NCBI GenBank assembly: GCA_029098165.1
Contig: JAQXNU010000081.1
Span: 1-39,988, forward strand
Direction: 5' to 3'
Origin: Clostridiales bacterium
GTDB taxonomy: Bacteria; Bacillota; Clostridia; Lachnospirales; Lachnospiraceae
Length of the DNA stretch: 39,988 bases
In this document: positions 850 to 13,445 of the stretch, in pieces
How the letters are laid out: each line of letters starts with the position of its first letter
Numbering within the stretch: position 1 is the first letter of the stretch
Made by a program: the position numbers and the translations under genes
The notes under the pieces: generated by a model
Seen by the model: only the letters and a program-made list of their open reading frames with translations
Database searches by the model: none
What the model was told of the DNA's origin: nothing

Positions 850-1115
850 AGTATAAAAAAATACCTTCATCCCATGCAACTTAACGCTGGGACAAAAGTA
901 TATAACTTCTGCGGTGCCACCCGGCTTGACGATAGAAATCGCCCTCTTAACGCATACCAACATATGCTTACTTTGATAACGGAGATTACCCTCCGGCGCC
1001 CCTACTAAATGTTCAGTTTGCCCTCCAAAGTCCATTCGGAATTGTCTTTGCTTGCCACATTCCCACCAACAGTGACTCTCTGCATAGAAAGATACAACTC
1101 TTACTTACTCTTTGT
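850..1115 (-). promoter_or_regulatory. T-box leader (probable tryptophan, UGG specifier) upstream of the TrpB-like gene
   Basis: Minus strand carries AGAGAGTCACTGTTGGTGGGAA, then GAA-TGG-ACTTTGGAG (TGG at 1032-1034), the T-box GGGTGGCACCGC (about 911-922), and a terminator hairpin ATACTTTTGTCCCA...TGGGATGAAGGTATTTTTTT. Confidence 0.9.
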
Positions 1116-1245
1116 CAACGGTTTAGCACAATATACCATAGTATATGAACAATGTAAATACTCTGTGACATACCGTTTTGTTATACCTTCTATGCATTGA
1201 GGGAATAAATAAGCTAGATTATGCAACGCCATCTCCTATAGGAGC

Positions 1246-11145: not shown

Positions 11146-13119
11146 TTATTCATACTGACTTTCTAACTTAGAAAAGAAGTCTACTCTTGGCTCTAAGAAC
11201 TTCATCTCATGTTTGGAAAGATCACCTACATAAGAGGAAATCGGTTCTAAGATATGATCCCAACTCCATAAATCTTCAGAAATATTGATATACTCACGGA
11301 ACATCTCACATCCAGTTGGTGCGATTGGATGAACAAGAACAGCCATTACCTTACAAGCATAGAAACAATCGATTAATGTCTGCTTTCTAAGTTCCATGTC
11401 ATCGTTATTATCTGCAGTTCGAATCTGATTTGTCCAGTACTTATTAATTTCACGGATATATTCATCAAGAACATAAGAAATTCTATGGAATTCCTGATTG
11501 TACATATGACGCTCATATTCTGTAACTTTTTCTTCTGCAAGGTTTAGGATCTTTTCGCTCACTTCACCTTCTGGAATCTTGCCATCGAAGTTCGTCTGAG
11601 CAGCATAGAAACAGGAACGGATCAAGCGATTAAATACGTTAGTTAACAAGTTTCCATCTTTTAATACCATATCCACGCCAACACGTTCTTCTTCCTTCAT
11701 AAATACCTGTGGCTTAAATCCTGTACTCTTATTAGATAAACCAAGACTCATAAAGTGCATACGAAGTTGCTCTGGAGTGTAGTACGTAAGCAATTCATCT
11801 GCCATTGGTGGCTTGATCTCAGAACTTGAACTCGCCTTAGTATCCATAAATAATACATGGCGGTTTGGAATGATGTGTGGAAGCTTCATCTTAGTATCGC
11901 CCTTGCTTAATGCCTGGAACATCGCCATCTCTGCGATGGAGTAAAAATAGATGTTATCTTCTCCGATGAACTGGTAAACGAAAGAATCTTCTCCGTTCCA
12001 CCATTCTTTCCATTCTTCCTTGTTATGACCGATCGATTCCAAATAGGTCTGAGTAAATGAAATCGGTGCCCATAAGGATTCTGGCCATACCCAGAACGTT
12101 AAGTCTTTTAAGTCTTCCTTATCTGGTACTTTTACGCCCCAAGAAACATTTCCAGATAAACGAAAAGGAACTAATGTCTTACCTGCAGTATAGTGAATTC
12201 CTAACTCTTCTAACGTCTTTCTTGCTTCGTCACGTAACTCTAAAGTTTCGAATTCAAATGTAACAGATTTCTTCTTTTCTTCATCGATTGTTGTATGAGC
12301 CGGAAGTTTACTTTCTAATTCTACAAGATCTTCAAAATACTTTCTTGGAACATGGATCAATGGTTTCTTTAAGAATTCATCAATGATGTCCATCTGATAT
12401 CTTCTTGTATTTGTTTCTTTACGTAAGAAGTTTAAACGCTCTTTTAATGGCTCAATACATTCATCTAATACGAAATACCAATTTGTTACGTTACGGAATG
12501 CTGGCTTTTTCCCGGATAATACGGAAATCGGATTGATCAGTTCACTTGGCATGTACTGATGTCCTAAAGAACACTCATCTGCATATGCGTGTTCTGACGT
12601 ACATCCAACGATTGGACATCTACCAACTACCTGACGACCATTTAAATATACATTAAATTCTTCATCATAGAACTGTGGTGTAGATTCCTGTCTAATGTAT
12701 CCAAGCTTGTAAAGTTCTTCGAATAACCAGTTGGATACTTCCTGATGAATCTCTTTTGCTTCACCGATTGCAGAACCCGCAAACATATTACAGCTGATTT
12801 CGTATTTCTTTAAAGTTTCTTCCTGGCTTTTATGATTCATCATCACGTAATCTTCAATGGAACCCTGATAACCGTCAGCAACTAATTTACGGTAACTTTC
12901 CTGAATAGGAGAACCATAACAGTCGGTTCCGGATACAAAGATAACATTGTCTTTACCGATACGGTCTCTTAAGAATCTTGCAAAGATGTCGGCGTGAATA
13001 AACATGCCACCAACATGTCCAAAATGAAGATTTTTATTGCCGTAAGGCATACCTGCTGTAATCACAGCTTTTTTAGGAAAACATGGACGTTCTCCTGGTT
13101 TTATACGTTTTGAAAACAT
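11146..13119 (-). CDS. Methionyl-tRNA synthetase-like class I aminoacyl-tRNA synthetase (diverged; amino-acid specificity uncertain)
   Basis: 657 aa; MetRS-like start AVITAGMPYGNKNLHFGHVGG (HIGH as HFGH), Zn-knuckle-like CPIVGC...ADECSLGH, QFIGEDNIYFYSIAEMAM; KMSKS position reads KASSS. Confidence 0.85.
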   Translation of the reverse strand: MFSKRIKPGERPCFPKKAVITAGMPYGNKNLHFGHVGGMFIHADIFARFLRDRIGKDNVIFVSGTDCYGSPIQESYRKLVADGYQGSIEDYVMMNHKSQEETLKKYEISCNMFAGSAIGEAKEIHQEVSNWLFEELYKLGYIRQESTPQFYDEEFNVYLNGRQVVGRCPIVGCTSEHAYADECSLGHQYMPSELINPISVLSGKKPAFRNVTNWYFVLDECIEPLKERLNFLRKETNTRRYQMDIIDEFLKKPLIHVPRKYFEDLVELESKLPAHTTIDEEKKKSVTFEFETLELRDEARKTLEELGIHYTAGKTLVPFRLSGNVSWGVKVPDKEDLKDLTFWVWPESLWAPISFTQTYLESIGHNKEEWKEWWNGEDSFVYQFIGEDNIYFYSIAEMAMFQALSKGDTKMKLPHIIPNRHVLFMDTKASSSSEIKPPMADELLTYYTPEQLRMHFMSLGLSNKSTGFKPQVFMKEEERVGVDMVLKDGNLLTNVFNRLIRSCFYAAQTNFDGKIPEGEVSEKILNLAEEKVTEYERHMYNQEFHRISYVLDEYIREINKYWTNQIRTADNNDDMELRKQTLIDCFYACKVMAVLVHPIAPTGCEMFREYINISEDLWSWDHILEPISSYVGDLSKHEMKFLEPRVDFFSKLESQYE

Positions 13120-13124
13120 AAAAA

Positions 13125-13445
13125 AAGACCCCCTGAAATAATTTACATTTCAAGGGACGAATCATTATCCGCGGTGCCACCCAAGTTCACTGTCATGTCA
13201 CCATGACAGCCTCATCAAGTACTTCCAATGCTGGTTCATACTCTAGTCTTGTAACGTAGACAAACGTCATAGCATCACGCACAAAAGATATTCATCCTTC
13301 CTTTAGGATGATTGAATTCTTGCGATCCGTATGCGGCTCCGAGGCTTGCTTCGTCTTACAAAAGATATCTGCTTCCAGCAATCACAGACTCTCTGAAATC
13401 TTTTTATAAGATTACTCTTCTCTTCATAGCTTTTCGATCAAATAT
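13125..13445 (-). promoter_or_regulatory. T-box leader upstream of the MetRS-like gene
   Basis: Minus strand: GAAGAGAAGAGTA, CAGAGAGTC, GATTGCTGGAAGC, T-box TGGGTGGCACCGCGG (about 13169-13182), and terminator GTCCCTTGAAATGTAAATTATTTCAGGGGGTCTTTTTTT directly abutting the ATG. Confidence 0.93.

Follow-up and report, generated by a model that had tools for sequence, protein, structure and literature searches.

In a 39,988-nucleotide stretch of a clostridial genome (hereafter the window), we identified an intact open reading frame on the minus strand (11146..13119, ATG start, 657 aa) whose product belongs to the methionyl-tRNA synthetase (MetRS) lineage, and we propose that this protein, which we call MQ, is a class Ia glutaminyl-tRNA synthetase, independent of both the class Ib enzyme (GlnRS) and the GluRS/GatCAB route. 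We put the probability of this reading at about 0.92. The T-box leader of the gene and the pattern of its occurrence among genomes strongly suggest that MQ acts on tRNA-Gln for decoding, and the amino acid attached would be glutamine rather than glutamate, because carriers of the gene without GatCAB exist.

MQ contains both the HIGH motif and a PF09334 (tRNA-synt_1g) domain at 6.8e-66 and 223 bits, which places it in the MetRS lineage of class I synthetases. It shares with MetRS (class Ia; PF09334, TIGR00398) the fold family, the HIGH region, the CP/zinc-type region and a C-terminal helical anticodon domain, and its best matches by Pfam, by PDB sequence and by Foldseek are all to this family. 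The nearest solved sequences are the MetRS enzymes of Pyrococcus abyssi and E. coli, and the top Foldseek match is still MetRS with an AlphaFold2 model from six sequences that is itself poor (pLDDT 57). All of the curated MetRS models that match MQ score well under their cut-offs (TIGR00398, 200 bits against 336; NF001100, 249 against 587; NF008900, 79 against 598), and the main MetRS models likewise match 19 of 19 aligned relatives; the class Ib GlnRS profiles TIGR00440 and PF00749 gave no match to MQ. Relatives were gathered by family-level, class-level and GTDB scans, and 49 members were aligned with E. coli MetRS. In a maximum-likelihood tree the family forms a single clade (support 94/98) beside MetRS and not beside Ile-, Val-, Leu- or CysRS, with branches long enough to draw a warning from the program, so that the exact attachment point of the clade is unsure. 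An insert of ~65 residues (residues ~254-320; 12160..12360, minus strand) separates the CP region from the latter half of the catalytic domain; it has no Pfam match and is missing from the MetRS enzymes of the same genome. The MQ family profile found no relatives in the viral_contigs collection, from which a MetRS query recovered MetRS-like sequences, most of them near-identical to E. coli metG.

MQ is neither a canonical MetRS nor the sole MetRS-type gene of the window's genome. The search for a second, canonical metG that had been suggested from the sequence alone located one on contig C171, encoding a protein of 687 aa with KMSKS and a tRNA-binding domain. A further MetRS-like gene on contig C2 (L001 1039..2691, minus strand) encodes a 550-aa enzyme with KISTS for KMSKS, which may be a spare MetRS or one under different regulation.

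Comparison of the 49 members with E. coli MetRS, in the published numbering, revealed that all six methionine-pocket residues (L13, A256, P257, Y260, H301 and W305) are replaced in every one of them. In the HIGH-motif region GMPYGNKNLHFGH (13015..13053, minus strand), A12 becomes Gly and L13 becomes Met, with Y15 and HxGH retained. The pocket strand VWPESLWAPISF (residues 344-355; 12055..12090, minus strand) carries A256S, P257L and Y260P, and the pocket helix GEDNIYFYSIAEM (residues 386-398; 11926..11964, minus strand) carries H301Y and W305E and keeps D296. The substitutions A12G, L13M, A256S, P257L, Y260P and H301Y, together with N391R, are uniform (49/49), while the W305 position holds Glu in 47 members and Gln in two, and R395 is Ser in 48 and Thr in one. 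W461 is also replaced, with Trp absent from the residues found at that position. The three contacts to the CAU anticodon (N391, R395 and W461) are thus changed throughout the MQ family and conserved in the metG of the same genome. VWPESLWAP, S354 and F355 are invariant in 19 of 19 aligned relatives, and the family retains Y15, W253, D296, the HIGH histidines and the Asp of 'GTDCYG' (D66); D296 and the latter Asp are the residues expected to hold the amino group.

The sequence-only reading had recognized a MetRS-type protein with KASSS in place of KMSKS, which is borne out: the loop (residues 428-432; 11838..11824, minus strand) is invariant in the family. Its hand alignment of pocket and anticodon residues stands as to the replacements and needs correction at two positions, since Y260 faces Pro and not Phe when 'VWPESLWAPI' is aligned without gaps, and W305 faces Glu. 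A profile alignment did not restore the methionine pocket elsewhere in the protein. We considered and rejected a decaying MetRS, as the substitutions are uniform or almost uniform in the 49 members and KASSS is invariant; this conservation indicates an enzyme under constraint whose side-chain pocket and anticodon site have changed. The exchanges of W305 for Glu or Gln and of H301 for Tyr could provide hydrogen bonds to a side-chain amide. E397, Y393 and the VWPESLWAP strand are predicted to be among the contacts to Gln-AMP and tRNA-Gln. The absence of the second lysine of KMSKS counts against the proposal; class I LysRS, with the loop KMSGS, likewise lacks it.

The feature that decides specificity, which the sequence-only reading did not include, is a T-box leader (RF00230) that immediately precedes the MQ gene (13150..13436, minus strand). 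It scores 113.3 bits against a gathering score of 93, spans the full-length model (1-219), ends 30 bases before the start codon and has a canonical specifier loop and antiterminator. The specifier codon is CAA, for Gln (13346..13348, minus strand), followed by a purine (G). We calibrated the frame by how far the specifier lies from the conserved GAG that ends Stem I in 19 other T-boxes of the genome. In 17 of them the codon agrees with the amino acid predicted from the gene that follows (for example metG AUG, valS GUA, cysS UGC, dapA AAA, asnS AAC and tyrS UAC), a prediction that is not independent for L012, L014 and L026; the two exceptions, upstream of pheS and serS, have one extra base each. 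Sixteen T-boxes of family genes, from which L143 was left out because its specifier stretch is the same as that of L142, read CAA (12) or CAG (four), both Gln codons. The frames one base to either side yield mixtures of Lys and Arg or of Thr, Ala and Pro, and the calibrated frame is the only one in which the amino acid is constant. A Gln specifier predicts a synonymous CAA/CAG switch beside a variable 5′ neighbor, so the glutamine reading fits the pattern. The T-box bulge, UGGC (13176..13179, minus strand), is complementary to a tRNA 3′ end of GCCA, that is, to a discriminator G73, which the tRNA-Gln(UUG) of the window's genome has; the corresponding bulges of relatives are UGGC or UGGU. Both other MetRS-type genes of the genome carry T-boxes with the specifier AUG, and a Gln specifier before a MetRS-like gene is an unusual combination for this RNA family.

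We compared the presence of MQ with that of GlnRS, scored by TIGR00440, in 299 genomes from the taxonomic family of the window and in 391 genomes from the class Clostridia. Carriers make up 15 of the 299 genomes in the family sample, and GlnRS is missing from 11 of these 15 versus nine of 284 non-carriers (Fisher p=5.7e-12); with the sample restricted to completeness of 90% or more and contamination of 5% or less, the figures are 9/13 and 2/233. G036 and G047, the two well-assembled non-carriers that lack GlnRS, have GatB and hence the known indirect route. In the Clostridia sample, GlnRS is missing from 46 of 49 carriers versus 106 of 342 non-carriers (p=6.5e-18). Both p-values treat related genomes as independent and are indicative, and the stronger argument comes from switches within genera: in g410, MQ occurs in G443, G487 and G612 and GlnRS in G546; in g327, MQ in G431, G495, G535 and G655 and GlnRS in G323, G356 and G586; in g307, MQ in G303, G341, G396, G465 and G564 and GlnRS in G578 and G594; and in g354, MQ in G602 and GlnRS in nine species. 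Some carriers (G000, G127, G024, G166, G406 and G483) keep the class Ib enzyme. The window's genome has both enzymes, and none of its 22 T-box matches lies on the GlnRS contig. Most of the carriers in the family sample that lack GlnRS do have GatB, so MQ is not the sole conceivable route to Gln-tRNA in those genomes.

Other carriers have no second route that we could find. Neither GlnRS nor GatB was found in G039 (100% complete) or G115 (97%), both of which have tRNA-Gln. For a full inventory we used the entire sequence of G396, a small carrier genome of 865,569 bp with no N and no masked stretch, setting aside G303 for its 72-kb masked stretch, and queried it with the synthetases of E. coli and of the genome itself. 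Synthetases are present for 19 amino acids (Ser, Gly, Met, Val, Pro, Leu, Lys, Asp, Phe, Thr, Ile, Tyr, Arg, Cys, Ala, Glu, Asn, Trp and His), with a canonical MetRS among them, and MQ is the only synthetase without an assigned amino acid. No GlnRS was found in the whole genome, where the GlnRS query matches only the gltX-like GluRS gene, and GatA and GatB queries gave no match. One is thus left on each side: glutamine without a synthetase, and MQ without an amino acid. G396 has both tRNA-Gln(UUG) and tRNA-Gln(CUG). We reject a reassignment of CAA and CAG to a different amino acid, as homologue positions opposite these codons in G396 are enriched in Gln 10.7-fold over expectation, like ordinary codons. 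MQ is therefore present where GlnRS and GatCAB are both not found and where the meaning of the Gln codons is unchanged. The absence of a gene from a draft genome is never fully safe, and here G039, G115 and the N-free G396 agree. The tRNA-Gln sequences of carriers look ordinary, with no obvious co-evolved identity change.

These observations bear on several other explanations. MQ might be a MetRS-fold analogue of GluRS2 that glutamylates tRNA-Gln for subsequent amidation by GatCAB, which would also account for the Gln T-box and the loss of GlnRS and would suit the GatB of most GlnRS-less carriers in the family sample; the pocket changes alone do not tell Glu from Gln. Without GatA and GatB in a genome free of masked bases, or GatB in G039 and G115, however, no correction of Glu-tRNA-Gln would be possible, yet CAA and CAG in G396 still mean Gln, and we regard this explanation as highly improbable. 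The specifier could alternatively be misplaced by one base, as the extra base in the pheS and serS T-boxes (two of 19) illustrates, so that the leader senses tRNA-Lys or another tRNA. We see next to no chance of this: a shift turns a pure CAA/CAG set into non-synonymous mixtures, the UGGC bulge suits the G73 of tRNA-Gln and not the A73 of tRNA-Lys, and LysRS is present in G396.

Two further explanations, a resistance-type variant and an enzyme acting outside normal translation, had been raised in the sequence-only reading alongside a paralogue with altered amino-acid or tRNA specificity. A second MetRS, either spare or of a resistance type, would agree with MetRS being the closest homologue in profile and structure searches, but canonical metG genes exist in the window's genome and in G396, the residues for methionine and the CAU anticodon are replaced family-wide, and MQ goes together with GlnRS loss; a resistance-type variant would neither carry a Gln-specific T-box, where the other MetRS-type leaders read AUG, nor replace GlnRS, making this an exceedingly improbable account. 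Amino-acid activation outside translation, for a peptide or a tRNA-dependent modification with MQ only sensing Gln starvation, draws on the fact that T-boxes can control non-synthetase genes and on the coexistence of MQ and GlnRS in some genomes, that of the window included. It leaves unexplained the exclusion of GlnRS within genera, the 19+1 inventory of a 0.87-Mb genome and the pairing with gltX, no biosynthetic cluster occurs among the inspected neighbors of MQ genes, and MQ is the only candidate source of Gln-tRNA in whole genomes; we judge it very improbable indeed. A paralogue altered in both specificities is the part of the earlier proposal that gains strong support, now made specific as glutamine and tRNA-Gln.

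As a MetRS-derived glutaminyl-tRNA synthetase, MQ would follow the usual two-step chemistry of class I, binding ATP and glutamine in the Rossmann site formed with the HIGH motif and KASSS loop, generating Gln-AMP and transferring glutamine to tRNA-Gln (anticodons UUG and CUG, G73), whose anticodon would be read by a rebuilt MetRS-type helical domain. The gene would be switched on when uncharged tRNA-Gln pairs with the leader at both its CAA specifier and its UGGC bulge. Beside the class Ib GlnRS of the window's genome, MQ may serve as a starvation-induced second copy in a back-up role, and in many Clostridia it appears to be the direct route to Gln-tRNA.

How glutamine came to be decoded is a textbook topic in code evolution. 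Reviews and surveys know only class Ib GlnRS or the amidation of Glu-tRNA-Gln by GatCAB or GatDE: the amidotransferase route is stated to serve organisms that lack GlnRS (PMC7373986), bacteria fall into three groups with respect to glutamine in a whole-genome survey (PMC3927822), and the accessible part of a 2024 synthetase catalogue describes glutamine supply by class Ib types only, with no class Ia family (PMC11580382). MQ shares its proposed reaction and tRNA with class Ib GlnRS (TIGR00440), and the two replace one another across Clostridia, but MQ comes from another class I lineage. A non-discriminating GluRS or GluRS2 with GatCAB likewise supplies Gln-tRNA-Gln in GlnRS-less genomes; that route needs an amidotransferase, whereas MQ is proposed to glutaminylate directly. 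From MetRS it departs by its sub-threshold scores, replaced pocket and anticodon residues, KASSS loop, insert, Gln T-box and coexistence with a canonical metG. The MQ family fits none of the types of glutamine supply described in PMC7373986, PMC3927822 and the accessible part of PMC11580382, and very likely represents a further bacterial solution besides GlnRS, GluRS2 with GatCAB and non-discriminating GluRS with GatCAB. Among titles and the openings of abstracts, with preprints and most subscription journals outside the scope, we found no paper on a MetRS-like GlnRS and no description of this pairing of lineage and amino acid. If the proposal is true, a whole synthetase specificity, for amino acid and anticodon, has been re-invented from another class I enzyme, and a MetRS-derived GlnRS has displaced the standard one repeatedly. 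It would account for genomes in which Gln-tRNA seems to have no source, set right the annotation of the gene in many clostridial bacteria and give synthetase engineering a natural scaffold of class Ia.

The MQ gene of the window appears to be monocistronic, flanked by genes that we read as a MATE-type transporter and a yaaA-like/peroxiredoxin pair. In Monoglobus pectinilyticus the MQ gene directly follows gltX, and on plasmid pRUMAL02 of Ruminococcus albus 7 it follows gltX with one hypothetical gene between. This conjugative plasmid of 353 kb, on which the gltX-like and MQ genes lie a short distance apart toward the start of the record (L297 131..4468), is a possible vehicle for the horizontal spread of MQ. 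A homologue is annotated in Collinsella too, and NCBI names all three 'class I tRNA ligase family protein'; WP_013483668.1 from R. albus 7, a family member 53% identical to MQ, is thus annotated without an amino acid or specific function. GluRS proteins of ~510-550 aa fall slightly under the TIGR00464 cut-off (L239 14217..15740; L297 131..1786), the GluRS copy of G396 shares 32% identity with the GluRS usual in clostridia, and long GluRS-type frames (549-563 aa) also occur in carriers G089 and G297 and non-carriers G008 and G017. In L034 (1168..9611) the MQ gene lies in a tight same-strand cluster between hybrid histidine kinases and a PEP-utilizing enzyme resembling PTS enzyme I, and L031 (1139..9608) has the same layout of open reading frames. 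A RAGATH-18 RNA (RF03064, 62 bits) is located just upstream of a tyrosyl-tRNA synthetase gene (L033 10945..11006). The window itself holds a second T-box (885..1127, minus strand) with the Trp specifier UGG, upstream of a truncated gene at the contig edge that looks like tryptophan synthase beta (TrpB2).
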